From: Alkalicoccus halolimnae
GTDB taxonomy: Bacteria > Bacillota > Bacilli > Bacillales > Salisediminibacteriaceae
Assembly: GCF_008014775.2 (NCBI RefSeq)
Contig: NZ_CP144914.1
Span: 1,178,001-1,242,000 of the forward strand
DNA: 64,000 nt
Direction of reading: 5' to 3'
The position numbers were made by a program, and so were the translations under genes. Position 1 is the stretch's first letter, and every line of letters starts with the position of its first letter. Shown piece by piece: positions 409 through 58,010 of this stretch. Below the pieces are notes generated by a model. It made no database searches. It saw only the letters and a program-made list of their open reading frames with translations, and was not told the DNA's origin.

Positions 409-449
409 AAAAAAACTGCTCCGGGGGGTGTATCCGGAGCAGTTTTTTG
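409..449 (+). terminator. Intrinsic terminator after azoR
   Basis: The inverted repeat AAAACTGCTCCGG / CCGGAGCAGTTTT with a short loop is followed by a T run. Because of the flanking A and T runs it could also end transcripts arriving on the minus strand, including that of the peptide gene whose stop codon lies about 10 bases away at 460. Confidence 0.85.
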
Positions 450-459
450 CTATAAATAT

Positions 460-570
460 TTATCCGTGACGGTAGGGAAGACCTCCTCCAAGAGTTTCCA
501 TCATTTCTAAAGCACCAACCGGGGAAGCGAACATCATTACTGCTAAAAAACATACGATAAAAATTTTCAT
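460..570 (-). CDS. 36-residue secreted peptide precursor, candidate pheromone of the adjacent PlcR-like regulator
   Basis: ATG at 570-568, stop at 462-460. An excellent ribosome site (AAGGAGGG) sits 7-8 bases upstream. The product begins MK, has an uninterrupted hydrophobic stretch (residues 3-15) and a signal-peptidase-like site PVGA at residues 17-20, leaving a roughly 16-residue tail that ends LGGGLPYRHG. Size, signal peptide and position beside a PlcR-type receptor gene all fit a pre-pheromone. PapR, the PlcR ligand, also ends in an LPF-containing peptide, so the LPY near this C-terminus is suggestive. The gene is divergent from the regulator, as with Rgg/SHP pairs. The peptide's secretion, processing and binding are inferred. 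A small secreted protein of other function is the alternative. Confidence 0.72.
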   Translation of the reverse strand: MKIFIVCFLAVMMFASPVGALEMMETLGGGLPYRHG

Positions 571-729
571 GTAAAGCCCTCCTTGATGGTATGATAAGAA
601 TACGTCCCAAAAGATCGTCTTCTAAGTAACAGTATGCCATATAAAAAAAGATAAGGAAAAAACTGTATCGCCTGAAAATATTGCAAACTTCACTATAATG
701 ATTGTTTTAGCTCCATTTTAATAAAAAAA

Positions 730-745
730 TATTCATATAAGAATA
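730..745. promoter_or_regulatory. Palindrome upstream of the PlcR-like gene, possible operator
   Basis: TATTC-ATATAA-GAATA is a perfect 5-bp-arm inverted repeat ending 22 bases before the regulator start codon, between the two divergent genes. A TATAAT hexamer at 694-699 could be the -10 box of the regulator, which would place the palindrome in its leader. An autoregulatory site is an inference; the sequence does not match the PlcR box TATGNA-N4-TNCATA. Confidence 0.35.
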
Positions 746-767
746 TAGAATATGGAGGGAAAGGTGT

Positions 768-1670
768 ATGGAAATCGATTTGGGTAGAAAAGTGAGAGAT
801 TTACGCAAGTTTTATGGCATTTCCCAGAAAGAAGTTTGTGAAAATATCTGTAACCAGAGCTACATAAGTAAACTGGAAAAAGGACTAGTCCATCCATCGG
901 CCAACATGCTCTCGATGCTTGCGGATCGTCTGGGGGTGAGCACCCAGTACTTCTTTGATTACTTTGTCGACGTGACCCAGGTTAATTACGTGTACCAGGT
1001 TATCGATTTTATTTCCAAAAACCTGGACCGTGCCAAGTATGAAGATGTACTAGCGATGGTGGAGGCAGAAGAAAAAAATCCTCTGTTTAGAGGTCACCAG
1101 CTCCAGCAGTTTTTACTCTGGCGAAAAGGAATTTGTATTTTCCATATCGATGAAAATAAATTCAAGGCAATATCATTTCTCGATAAAGCTATTGAACAAT
1201 CTGAAACCACTAATAAAAATAAATCAGAAATAGAATTAGATATTTTATTAAGTAAAGCTAATATTTATAGTATGGTAGATGAACATAATCATGCTGCAGC
1301 TCTTTATGAAGAACTTTTATCTGCAAGTCGAAAACATCCTTATCTGCAGAACGATAAATTAGTTTTGCGAATCTATTACAATTACAGTAAAAATCAATTT
1401 GATCAAAATCAATTTAAAAAATCTGTAGGACTAGCTAAGAGTGGAATTAAGCAATGTCTTAATACAGACTCTTTATATATGTTAGCTGATCTTTATTTCC
1501 AATGCGGTCAAAGTCTCTGGCACAGCAATAAGAAACAAATAGAAGAACCGCTTCTATATTTAGAAAAATCCCGAAATGTTTTTATGCTTCGTGAAAATGA
1601 AGAATTTGCAGGTTTCGTTGAAGAAGAGATTGAAGATATTAAGAATTATGTTAAACATACAGATCTTTAA
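768..1670 (+). CDS. PlcR-like peptide-sensing transcription regulator (HTH_XRE + TPR)
   Basis: 300 residues. An XRE-type helix-turn-helix spans roughly residues 6-60 (ISQKEVCENICNQSYISKLE), followed by TPR-like helical repeats to the end. Length (PlcR is 285) and local resemblance, including LQQFLLW where PlcR has FQQFLQW, place it in the RNPP family, whose members bind a re-imported peptide in the TPR groove and then activate target genes. The start is an ATG with AGGGAAAGG upstream. A divergent signal-peptide gene at 460-570 is the likely ligand source. The first ~380 bases have codon use like the neighbours, but from about 1150 the gene becomes markedly A/T-rich, so the sensor half may have a different history. 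The genes it controls are unknown. Confidence 0.85.
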   Translation: MEIDLGRKVRDLRKFYGISQKEVCENICNQSYISKLEKGLVHPSANMLSMLADRLGVSTQYFFDYFVDVTQVNYVYQVIDFISKNLDRAKYEDVLAMVEAEEKNPLFRGHQLQQFLLWRKGICIFHIDENKFKAISFLDKAIEQSETTNKNKSEIELDILLSKANIYSMVDEHNHAAALYEELLSASRKHPYLQNDKLVLRIYYNYSKNQFDQNQFKKSVGLAKSGIKQCLNTDSLYMLADLYFQCGQSLWHSNKKQIEEPLLYLEKSRNVFMLRENEEFAGFVEEEIEDIKNYVKHTDL

Positions 1671-1749: not shown

Positions 1750-1885
1750 ACAGGTCACCGGAGTAGGAATGGGTGACTCCGAAGCGATAAAGGACGAGCC
1801 GAAGATCCATTTCTTCCAACCTGTGGGAGGAAGAAATTAGCTGAGGCCGTCCCGCTCGGAAAGCATCCCCATGGAAACAAAGGTG
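1750..1885 (-). repeat. Dispersed GC-rich core repeat, minus orientation
   Basis: This holds the core shared by repeats across the window: on the minus strand CCATGGGGATGCTTTCCGAG, then CCTCAGCTAATT, GATCTTCGGCTCGTCC and a GGAGTC box. The ends seen in the longer elements are not recognisable, so it is a decayed copy. The rest of the gap 1671-1972 shows nothing clear beyond the leader of the next gene. Confidence 0.7.
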
Positions 1886-10618: not shown

Positions 10619-11036
10619 AAGGCTGTTGAAAAAGTATTTTTTCTGTATTTTTATCCATGGGGCTGTTTCCGCCTTACATGGTCGCTTTCCGGAGGGAACT
10701 CTCTCAGCTAACCTGCCTTTGGCAGATGGATCTTCGAATCGTTCTACGTCCTCCAGGAGTCGACCATCCGGCTCCAACAGCCCGATGGATAAAGGATGGT
10801 CTTACGAAAGCAAAGGTAGAACACTGCTGTCGCTCCTGAAAACCCCTATTTTCTCCGAAGGGTCCGGCGGAGACGCCAGTGGGATATAAGCGCAGTCTGA
10901 AGATCATTTCCCCTGCCCTGGAGGCAGGGGAAATAGCTGAAGACAAGCCCCACGGCAAGCTTCCGCCGGTAAGCTAAGGAGAAAATACAAGGAATCGAAT
11001 ACATGTACTTTTTTCTTTACTTAATCAACACTCTGA
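10619..11036 (+). mobile_element. MITE-like element, family A, copy 1
   Basis: Non-coding, about 418 bp. The ends are imperfect inverted repeats: TAAGGCTGTTGAAAAAGTA on the left, and on the right the complement of TACTTAATCAACACTCTGA (15 of 21 positions pair). The interior is shared with 30910-31320: TTCCGGAGGGAACTCTCTCA near the left, then GCGCAGTCTGAAGATC, AATAGCTGAAGACAAGCCCC and CTTCCGCCGGTAAGC. The element sits between two copies of a 35-bp hairpin. Short frames in it are not conserved between copies as proteins. A transposase acting in trans is inferred; none is in the window. Confidence 0.75.
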
Positions 11037-21028: not shown

Positions 21029-21052
21029 AAACGTAACAAATTAAATAGTTGA

Positions 21053-21180
21053 TCACTGGAGGTGCCTTTCTTAAAGGCTGAGATCGAAGTGCTGCTTCGG
21101 GACTCCCAGAACCTGATCCAGTTTATACTGGCGTAGGGAAGTGACGCGAAAGCTGATAATGCACCACCCTATCGGTAACT
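21053..21180 (+). promoter_or_regulatory. TPP riboswitch (THI element) of the tenI-thiO-thiS-thiG-thiF operon
   Basis: The conserved THI-box features are in order: ACTGGAGGTGCC, CTGAGA, AACCTGATCCAGTTTATACTGG and CGTAGGGAAGTGACGC. These form the thiamine pyrophosphate-binding three-way junction. The terminator 3-4 bases downstream is the expression platform, so the operon should be shut off when TPP is plentiful. Confidence 0.95.
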
Positions 21181-25007: not shown

Positions 25008-25668
25008 AGGCTGCCTTGAAAATAAAGTATTGAAGCGATGAAAGTGCGCTTTCGTTTCCATGGGGACGCTTTCCGGGCGGGCCGGCCTCAGCTAATTCCG
25101 ACCTCCCTGCGGTCGTGCGGAATGGATCTTCGGCTCGTCCTTGATCGCCCCGGAGCCGCCCCATGTCCACTCCAGCTTACGGTAAGAAATACAGATCAGG
25201 ATCTGCCTTCTAATAACGAAGATCCCGTTTGATCATTATTCATTCTACTTGTATAAAGAGAAAGCTCCATTCTCATAGAAGGACATTTTCATCCCTCATG
25301 GTGCAAGGATTTTGCATGAGTGTCTCTGTTAAAGCTCCGTGTTGTTATTGGATTCCGCCTGCCACGGAGAAAGCATGCGGCTTCTCTTGCGTCCGGGAGG
25401 ATCTTCCCGCTTTCTTTTTCCGCAGGCGTCTTGAAACATCACCTTGGCACTGTTTCTATCTTGATCCCTTCTTGATTCAACCAGCGGGCTTCCTGTATTG
25501 GAAAATTACAACGAAACGGAAACCGGCGGACGCCTGTGGAAGAAGGAGATTGGAAGATCCCGCAGGGCGTAAGCCTGAGGAAGCTGGAAATCTCCTCCAC
25601 GACAAGCCTGCCGAGTTGAAGCGGAGTTTTCTGTATTTATTAACAACAGAATGCTTTAACACAGCTTA
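25008..25668 (+). mobile_element. Composite non-coding repeat, family B, longest copy
   Basis: About 660 bp. It starts AGGCTGCCTTGAAAATAAAG and ends GCTTTAACACAGCTTAA. The left half holds the GC-rich core (CCATGGGGACGCTTTCCGGG to GCCCCGGAGCCGCCCC) and a conserved stretch to CATGAGTGTCTCTGTTAAAG. The right half (from about 25331) has its own inverted ends, CTCTGTTAAAGC and GCTTTAACACAG, and exists alone in reverse at 48391-48733. Further copies or deletion derivatives lie at 30142, 30280, 41417 and 60241. No protein is conserved between copies. Confidence 0.75.
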
Positions 25669-25949: not shown

Positions 25950-26070
25950 CTATCCATGGGAACATTTTCGGAGCAGAACGTCCTCAGCTAATTCCTTCCT
26001 TAGGTGGAGCAGAATGGATCTTCGGATCGTGCCCGGGAGTCGAACCATTTCTTCTCCGGCTGCAGAGTGT
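25950..26070 (+). repeat. GC-rich core repeat, decayed copy
   Basis: Contains CCATGGGAACATTTTCGGAG, CCTCAGCTAATTCC, ATGGATCTTCGGATCGT and a GGGAGTCG block, the shared core in plus orientation without recognisable element ends. The gap 24994-26187 is thus mostly repeats; 26071-26187 shows nothing clear. Confidence 0.6.
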
Positions 26071-28808: not shown

Positions 28809-28814
28809 CTCGAT

Positions 28815-28908
28815 AAGTCGTTCCACTTTCCTACGCTGGTATAAACCAGATCAGGTTCAAAGGGATCAGGCGTAAACCTGTCTCAGCTTGAAGCACCCCT
28901 AGTGGTAA
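28815..28908 (-). promoter_or_regulatory. TPP riboswitch of the thiM-thiD-thiE operon
   Basis: Read on the minus strand: ACTAGGGGTGC, CTGAGA, GAACCTGATCTGGTTTATACCAG and CGTAGGAAAGTGG, the THI-box order. With the one at 21053 it places both convergent thiamine operons under TPP repression. Confidence 0.95.
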
Positions 28909-28941
28909 ACATGATGAATTTGTGAACAAAGGAAAGAACTC

Positions 28942-56726: not shown

Positions 56727-58010
56727 ATGTTAGGGAAACTGTTAAAATACAATAGAATAAAACAAGGAAAGAAACAGGAAGATATATGCAGGGATATCTG
56801 TTCCGTTTCTTACTATAGTAAAATTGAAAATAATAGAATTAATCCTGCAGATGAAGTTTTTGAACAACTGCTGAACAGGTTGAATTTAACTTCGTCTGAC
56901 CTCGAAAAACTGGATTACGAAGAAATGAAACGGAAACTCATAAACTGGCATTCGCTCATCATACGCAAACAGACAAGTGAAGCAGAAAGAGTAAGAAATG
57001 AACTGGCTGAAGAAATAGAATATTTTCATGATAGCCACATACAATTAATGTATCTGCTTTTTGCAGCCAGATTTGCTGTATTTAAGGAAGATATTCACTA
57101 CCTTGAAGAACTGAGGCAAGCAATAAGCGAATTTTCACTCGAAGAAGTACCCGAAGATATCAAATTTTATTACGAAAAAATACACACAATTATCTATATA
57201 TTCTTTGAAAGATACGACCAGTCCCGCAATCATGCCTGCCTGGCCAGTGACTACAGCAAAGAAGTGGTGCTGCCGGAAGAAGAGTTGATCGATCACTTTG
57301 CTCTTTTAGGAAGAGTCGGTCTGGAAACCGGTGACTATTCAATCAGCATCGATTTCACCCAAAGAGCAATTAACGTCTATGACAGAGATTACAATCTTCA
57401 TTTGAGCGGTGCCTGCAGAGTGCTGCTGGCAAGGGCCTACCGTAAAGTTCTGAAATTCGAAAAAGCGATTGAAGAACTGGATAAAGTAGCTGCTATAAGC
57501 GAGCAGACTCAAAATACCCGATTGGAGGCAGAAGTTCTCCAGATGAGAGGAGAAATATATGCCCAGTCAAACAAACAGATGGATGCCATTCACTGCTTCC
57601 AGCAGAGTTACCGGATGCGTTCGGGCAGAGAGAGGCTCGTAACGATACATTCCATTCTGCAGGAATTCGAAAAGCTGGATTCTGGACAGGATATTCTAAG
57701 CTGGGTAGCTCATGGAATGGAAACGATATCGAAATTAAAAAATAAGCGGATGCTGATTCCTTTCGATGAGAAATACGAATTAAAATTTCTCTACTATTTA
57801 GTTTCTTATGATAGAGTTCATGAAAAAGATTTTGAAGCTACGGTTAAAGAAAAAATCCTTCCTTTTTTTGAAGATCTGCAGGATTGGGTCTCCATTGCAT
57901 TTTATTCTGAAAAACTCGGAAGCTATTACGAAAAGAGAAAAGAATTTGATGAAAGCCTTATATGGTATAAAAAGTCGATTCAGTCTTTATGGGCGAGAGC
58001 CCGGTACTGA
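56727..58010 (+). CDS. NprR-like HTH-TPR transcription regulator
   Basis: 427 residues (NprR is about 423). XRE-type helix-turn-helix at about 4-60 (QGKKQEDICRDICSVSYYSKIENNRINP), then roughly nine TPR-like helical hairpins, e.g. LLGRVGLETGDYSISIDFTQRAINVYDRD and LRRAYRK-like LLARAYRKVLKFEKAIEELDKVA, ending YEKRKEFDESLIWYKKSIQ. ATG follows GAGGTGTG. Family members are peptide-gated activators of the RNPP group. No gene with a clear signal peptide lies within a few hundred bases, unlike the system at 460-1670. It sits between two direct copies of the family C repeat. Confidence 0.85.
   Translation: MLGKLLKYNRIKQGKKQEDICRDICSVSYYSKIENNRINPADEVFEQLLNRLNLTSSDLEKLDYEEMKRKLINWHSLIIRKQTSEAERVRNELAEEIEYFHDSHIQLMYLLFAARFAVFKEDIHYLEELRQAISEFSLEEVPEDIKFYYEKIHTIIYIFFERYDQSRNHACLASDYSKEVVLPEEELIDHFALLGRVGLETGDYSISIDFTQRAINVYDRDYNLHLSGACRVLLARAYRKVLKFEKAIEELDKVAAISEQTQNTRLEAEVLQMRGEIYAQSNKQMDAIHCFQQSYRMRSGRERLVTIHSILQEFEKLDSGQDILSWVAHGMETISKLKNKRMLIPFDEKYELKFLYYLVSYDRVHEKDFEATVKEKILPFFEDLQDWVSIAFYSEKLGSYYEKRKEFDESLIWYKKSIQSLWARARY

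Follow-up and report, generated by a model that had tools for sequence, protein, structure and literature searches.

The window analysed here, a stretch of 64,000 nucleotides from Alkalicoccus halolimnae, covers positions 1178001-1242000 of a single-contig 3.69-Mb genome. Close to its start lies a short gene on the minus strand (460..570, 36 codons with an ATG start), a candidate pheromone precursor gene whose 36-aa product reads MKIFIVCFLAVMMFASPVGALEMMETLGGGLPYRHG. Its ribosome-binding site, AAGGAGGG (577..584, minus strand), was recognized in the sequence 6 nt from the ATG. Judged by eye, the product starts with a Sec-like N-terminus, that is a signal peptide with a V-G-A cleavage site, and placing the cleavage point in the same way splits it into MKIFIVCFLAVMMFASPVGA-LEMMETLGGGLPYRHG. 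The tail of the product, GGGLPYRHG, is encoded at 463-489 (minus strand). RNA folding revealed a hairpin terminator (409..448, minus strand) between the peptide gene and a convergent gene, the A. saliphilus orthologue of which is an FMN-dependent NADH-azoreductase. The fold of positions 400-470 of the minus strand has an energy of -25.4 kcal/mol (z -6.3), and the hairpin is absent from the list produced by a generic terminator scan. On the other side, the ORF coordinates leave an intergenic region of 197 nt (571-767) between the peptide gene and the gene that faces it.

This second gene (768..1670, plus strand) encodes a PlcR-like XRE-TPR receptor of 300 aa, an assignment based on Pfam, a PDB sequence match, an AlphaFold2 model, fold matches and a tree. 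The Pfam matches are RNPP_C (3.2e-17) and HTH_3 (2.1e-10). The top PDB sequence match is PlcR (2qfc, 1.2e-15), with which the receptor shares 20-23% identity, and there is no Rgg among the 16 PDB sequence matches. The AlphaFold2 model consists of helical repeats (pLDDT 90), and Foldseek searched with this model returned PlcR with an E value of 2.2e-11, versus 3.4e-6 for the best Rgg2. The protein has an N-terminal HTH followed by a TPR domain, its length falls within the 250-500 aa given for RNPP/RRNPP receptors in excerpts of PMC10075063, and a small, conserved propeptide with a Sec signal (by eye) is encoded next to it. A protein-database search with the receptor gave 13 homologues, which carry generic names only, where they are named. 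In the tree, PlcR is placed outside the 54-row receptor family and beside the second Alkalicoccus receptors described below, on a long branch whose position is marked as unsure.

The receptor branch is spread across many Bacillales genera. We surveyed the loci of the best 80 of 346 receptor relatives, a set that includes near-copies (for example about 10 Peribacillus-type loci) and partly coincides with the G-numbered genomes compared below, for frames of 25-75 aa with a hydrophobic N-terminus and a ribosome site, located within 600 nt of the receptor. Among these best 80 of 346, the raw filter gave matches in the divergent upstream position at 52 loci, upstream on the same strand at 3, downstream on the same strand at 10 and downstream convergent at 18, a divergent excess larger than chance would give. 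Implausible matches were removed upon reading (all 3 of those upstream on the same strand, 3 of the 10 downstream on the same strand, and 7 of the 18 convergent), and three loci (L056, L060 and L063) left the divergent group because a better candidate was found elsewhere. This resulted in 49 divergent, 7 same-strand downstream and 11 convergent peptide genes, with none at 13 loci, for the same best 80 of 346. By our own sorting, a credible peptide frame thus adjoins the receptor in 67 of the best 80 of 346 loci, with 49 of the 67 in divergent order, which is the commonest layout of this PlcR-like branch. The seven same-strand downstream peptides come from Priestia, Metabacillus and two Bacillus sp. 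and have LPxQH tails, nine of the 11 convergent ones end in LP[YW]CH, and in six of the 49 divergent loci (L051, L057, L071, L084, L090 and L095) the tail is outside the LP/IP/PP kind. A looser rescan of the 13 receptors without a credible peptide neighbour among the best 80 of 346 (L053, L064, L066, L070, L074, L076, L093, L099, L100, L101, L104, L106 and L107) gave nothing convincing; these are either orphans, or their peptides escape the filter. Elsewhere, the receptor homologue matches at L027, L028 and L032 were seen to contain one in-frame stop codon each.

Two Alkalicoccus genomes, G002 and G003 (both 99% complete), have neither receptor nor peptide at the spot beside the azoreductase gene, and the receptor search in them matches only second-system receptors. 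The receptor and the peptide gene are thus gained or lost as a pair. A codon test on 16 overlapping pairs, drawn from 24 related short ORFs, counted 85, 42 and 191 substitutions at codon positions 1, 2 and 3, respectively, with a pooled pN of 0.110 against a pS of 0.411; selection on these related short frames is purifying. The sequence-only reading had described two divergent genes at 460-1670, a pheromone precursor facing a PlcR-like receptor, and had asked whether the short frame would lack conservation or codon-position bias. Neither was found: the frame is conserved near receptors, and third positions are favoured. The ORFs, the codon test, the loci of relatives and the joint absence confirm that the 36-codon frame and the 300-aa regulator are divergent and both gene-like, and the conserved frame, together with the PDB and fold matches, also supports the proposed roles of the two products.

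The tails of the peptides differ between clades. Alkalicoccus and Evansella have LPYRHG, LPYKHG, LP[YF]RHR and IPFKHG, Salipaludibacillus and E. clarkii have PPxYTHG, and further relatives have LPFEH, LPYQH, ELPPLY and ELPSVH. PapR classes include LPFE(F/Y) and LPFEH, according to excerpts of PMC5007282. At one locus (L083, Bacillus sp. P14.5), a propeptide encoded 220 nt 5' of the receptor contains ELPPVY five times, likely a signal amplification inside one precursor. Tandem tails were also found at L067 (ELPGLY twice) and at L201 and L209 (LPYED twice), and excerpts of PMC9765709 describe tail repeats as known among RRNPPA propeptides.

The PapR glutamate is contacted by PlcR residues K87, K89 and Y275 (PMC5007282, in excerpt). 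With the register set by us, the peptide of the window has an arginine at this place, and its receptor has D87 and A89. In a comparison of 51 receptor-peptide pairs (50 plus PlcR), D or E was found at the PlcR K87 position in 7 of the 8 pairs whose peptide has K or R at the PapR-Glu place, versus 1 of the 43 others; the exception, L065 (peptide R), has N87. A blind column scan gave a correlation of -0.63 at residue 158 versus -0.45 at residue 87, which is therefore not singled out. Since the pattern comes mostly from one clade, with the L065 exception and stronger columns elsewhere, the apparent charge swap at residue 87 supports a peptide-receptor match but is not decisive. In the alignment, PlcR N201 and K204 correspond to residues N205 and K208 of the receptor. 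N205 is invariant across the 16 sequences of one alignment (A1), and falls outside the columns of at least 90% in another (A2), which holds 54 sequences: the window's receptor and 53 of the 80, with L090 omitted for its in-frame stop.

Could the short frame be a chance ORF next to an ordinary regulator? Short frames are common, and our filter also fires in the other three positions, at 3, 10 and 18 loci of the best 80 of 346. Against this stand pN/pS ratios below 1 in 16 of 16 pairs (0.07-0.65), the good ribosome site before the frame, and its absence together with the receptor; with the codon test and the joint absence both contradicting it, we dropped this explanation, to which we give practically no credence. 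A different objection is that the receptor is a real RNPP regulator whose ligand comes from elsewhere, while the 36-aa frame is a leader/attenuator or a small membrane protein. One such source would be a second system in the window's genome, a paralogous divergent pair (L002, 1305-1427 on the minus and 1486-2379 on the plus strand; G000:C1, about 651300-652370) in which the tail is LPYER and a 281-aa frame that matches nothing in Pfam comes after the peptide gene. The existence of this second receptor with its own divergent peptide and PapR-like tail speaks for such an arrangement, as do the 13 of the best 80 of 346 receptors that have no adjacent peptide. It is countered by the presence and absence of the receptor and peptide genes together, by the conservation of the tail and its tandem copies, unlike a leader-like run, and by the charge at the gatekeeper position, which tracks the neighbouring peptide in this clade. 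We therefore consider a ligand from elsewhere improbable, and retain the 36-aa product as the candidate pheromone precursor.

Upstream of the receptor gene, 22 nt 5' of its start, lies a putative operator, the palindrome TATTCATATAAGAATA (730..745), which is retained in all five of the Alkalicoccus loci that were compared. In six loci, the five of Alkalicoccus plus Evansella, the palindrome precedes the receptor start by about 19-26 nt, with the form TATTCATATA[AGC]GAATA in the former and TATGAATATAGGAATA in the latter. Salipaludibacillus-type loci have TATTAACATATTAATA or near forms, and the Peribacillus-type sites, TATAACTCTAGGCATA, are imperfect palindromes. The palindrome thus varies between receptor clades, and the clean sites from a best-palindrome scan were mostly those of the Alkalicoccus and Salipaludibacillus-type clades. 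At L033, L034, L036 and L037, the receptor-gene site starts 1-3 nt after a TAAAAT-like hexamer; the hexamer is TAAACT at L035 and less clear in the window, and a generic promoter scan gave nothing above shuffles. Because the site is just 3' of a likely -10 box, negative autoregulation of the receptor gene is predicted. Sites with at most one mismatch number 5, 3, 0, 0, 3, 2, 3 and 2 in Alkalicoccus genomes G000-G007, counts for which a reversed-pattern control says little, the motif being a palindrome. The other near-matches in the window's genome (L115-L117) and in single relatives (L136, L138-L140) have no common target by eye.

One of the additional sites is located before the stress-chaperone gene htpG (NCBIfam HtpG, 6.7e-177; Pfam HSP90). 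In Alkalicoccus genomes, a palindrome-type site lies 19-22 nt 5' of the htpG TTGACA (-35) box, and it is present in 6 of 6 genomes with the receptor versus 0 of 2 without, counting G007, in which the receptor is seen only as a 3' end on a broken contig. The placement 5' of a good -35 box suits activation, and the system probably controls htpG, as judged from site position and distribution. The htpG regions of other genera (n=15) contain nothing within three mismatches of the three operator types tried; in this survey 3 of 26 loci were unanchored, and at E 1e-50 a search for htpG came back empty in 4 of 30 genomes. Because the genus is not resolved in the htpG tree, the link to htpG may be one event.

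In some sister loci, a gene for a secreted-looking subtilase is found downstream of the receptor (Peptidase_S8, 6.7e-66 in L043). Within the fetched flanks, which reach at most 2.5 kb on each side, such a gene accompanies 10 receptors of the best 80 of 346. The receptor's own palindrome recurs with 0-1 mismatch between receptor and subtilase in 5 of 8 loci, in each case with 0 of 300 shuffles as good. At L033 and L034 there are 2-mismatch sites (0 of 300 shuffles) that overlap the receptor coding sequence, and at L042 the subtilase is present with no matching operator (best 4 mismatches; 27 of 300 shuffles as good). As for Salipaludibacillus-type genomes, G026 has a 1-mismatch copy, G016 and G030 only 3-mismatch sites. 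In related bacteria the system probably controls a protein-digesting enzyme, the subtilase. In the second Alkalicoccus system, the peptide and subtilase genes are arranged in tandem and point away from the receptor gene in four genomes (L201, L209, L213 and L214). In the window's genome no subtilase adjoins either receptor; a macro-domain gene directly follows the window's receptor, and in A. saliphilus this gene (60% identical) comes after the subtilase. Since subtilisin-type proteases are reported to mature a B. subtilis pheromone (in a work cited by PMC11343458), the subtilases linked to these receptors may act in pheromone maturation in addition to being outputs.

The palindrome might also belong to an unrelated regulator that acts on the receptor gene and on htpG, which would leave the receptor itself without a predicted target. 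That htpG already has other control argues for this, because it carries a CIRCE-like inverted repeat, which we take to be the HrcA site CIRCE. Three observations weigh on the other side: the htpG site is absent exactly where the receptor is absent (2 of 2), E. clarkii has its receptor-side variant GATTAACATATTAATC again, without any change, ahead of the subtilase, and the palindrome differs among receptor clades. We regard an unrelated regulator as unlikely, and continue with the palindrome as the candidate operator of the receptor itself.

Other features of the window include a further XRE-TPR regulator of 427 aa (56727-58010, plus strand), with an RNPP/NprR-Rap-like build (HTH_3 and TPR_12 above the cut-off, RapH_N just below), for which no peptide gene was evident by eye in the ORF list. 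Two TPP riboswitches lie at 21048-21156 (plus strand) and 28811-28910 (minus strand). A dispersed hairpin repeat of the form GAAGATCCAT-(stem-loop)-TTAGCTGAG, seen in an alignment to lie inside a longer conserved unit, occurs at 1801-1845 (plus strand), 10703-10735, 25087-25131 and 25983-26023 (all minus strand). These four copies in the window compare with 0 expected; genome-wide there are 74 copies, whereas the reversed pattern occurs 0 times. The repeat has no Rfam match in the window. A sequence resembling it by eye is located upstream of htpG in G009 and G019.

Comparison between genomes established that both frames are genes, that they occur and are missing together, that the palindrome is conserved, and that copies of it lie at htpG and at subtilase genes. 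We propose that the two genes very probably form a one-component peptide quorum-sensing system working like PlcR-PapR, and from this likeness we infer its export, trimming, import, peptide and DNA binding and sign of regulation. The 36-aa propeptide, transcribed as a unit of its own, would leave the cell through Sec and be cut down extracellularly to roughly the final 6-8 residues ((G)GLPYRHG). An oligopeptide permease would take the tail up again; the genome encodes six SBP_bac_5 proteins, possible import components. The tail would then occupy the groove formed by the TPRs of the divergently encoded receptor, and the loaded receptor would bind 16-bp TATTC-type palindromes, activating at htpG and acting as a negative autoregulator at its own gene. 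In sister clades the same wiring would lead to the secreted subtilase, possibly both output and pheromone-maturing protease. It is tempting to extend this speculatively to a large PlcR-like Bacillales branch in which the genes diverge around one operator, with the receptor turned down and targets up, htpG having been captured in Alkalicoccus and the sister-clade subtilase, as output and maturase, closing a protease-pheromone loop; this wider scheme we hold to be possible rather than probable.

A survey excerpted from PMC9765709 places the Bacillales pheromone gene immediately downstream of the receptor, although both sides were searched. Two others, PMC10075063 and PMC12700828, of which we had excerpts, show receptor-propeptide orientation in figures, and such divergent loci may therefore be in their tables. 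Searches of the open-licence literature turned up neither a divergent system of the PlcR-PapR type in Alkalicoccus and its kin, nor a link between a PlcR-like regulator and a protease in alkaliphiles, nor control of htpG by a receptor of this kind. What is new here is the palindrome shared by the receptor gene and htpG, the copying of the receptor palindrome before subtilases and, as an indecisive pattern from one clade, the peptide charge change that goes with an acidic residue at the PlcR K87 position. If the proposal is true, cell density governs a general chaperone (Hsp90) and secreted subtilases in these bacilli via a peptide code. The branch contains natural pairs that differ by clade in peptide residue, receptor residue and DNA operator, so that signal-receptor and receptor-operator coevolution becomes testable with synthetic peptides, and it could yield orthogonal PlcR-type signalling parts.

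Among known systems, NprR-NprX resembles the present one in its RNPP receptor, Sec-exported peptide and link to a secreted protease, and in the streptococcal Rgg-SHP systems the peptide gene may be divergent to an XRE-TPR-like receptor, as it is here. The sequence-only reading had suggested that the locus could mix the PlcR and Rgg/SHP layouts. This was not supported: SHP is exported by PptAB, not Sec (PMC9765709, in excerpt), whereas the peptide here is Sec-like by eye, the receptor is nearer PlcR than Rgg, with Rgg2 ranking lower than PlcR among the fold matches, and the branch most often has the divergent order. A hybrid with Rgg was dropped on the sequence and fold matches. PlcRa-PapRa of B. 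cereus, as described in excerpts of PMC3519770, pairs a PlcR-like receptor with a secreted peptide whose gene lies upstream (strand not stated), and PapRa7, CSIPYEY, resembles the tails found here. It differs in that PapRa has 93 aa with an internal active stretch; in addition, plcRa does not regulate itself, and no palindrome was identified in that system. The closest match, by both sequence and fold, is PlcR-PapR of the B. cereus group, with its XRE receptor of five TPRs and about 300 aa, its secreted propeptide with an LP(F/Y)-type C-terminus, and its 16-bp palindromic site of 6-4-6 form (PMC2464732, in excerpt); the same excerpts list proteases, one of them a subtilase, in the PlcR regulon. 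Apart from the identity of 20-23%, the differences are that the peptide gene is divergent here, not downstream on the same strand as that of PlcR, and that the receptor's own promoter has TATTCATATAAGAATA and no PlcR box TATGnAnnnnTnCATA, the half-site being TATTCA or TATTAA instead of TATGNA. Compared with the LP(F/Y)E type, the tail GLPYRHG retains LPY, has one additional residue, and has R where PapR has E; R or K takes that place in 8 of the 51 pairs compared. The site is placed for predicted negative autoregulation, whereas plcR is autoinduced (PMC2464732, in excerpt), and the predicted target is htpG. Taken together, the receptor most likely acts in a PlcR-PapR-like manner, from a separate branch of the RRNPP family.
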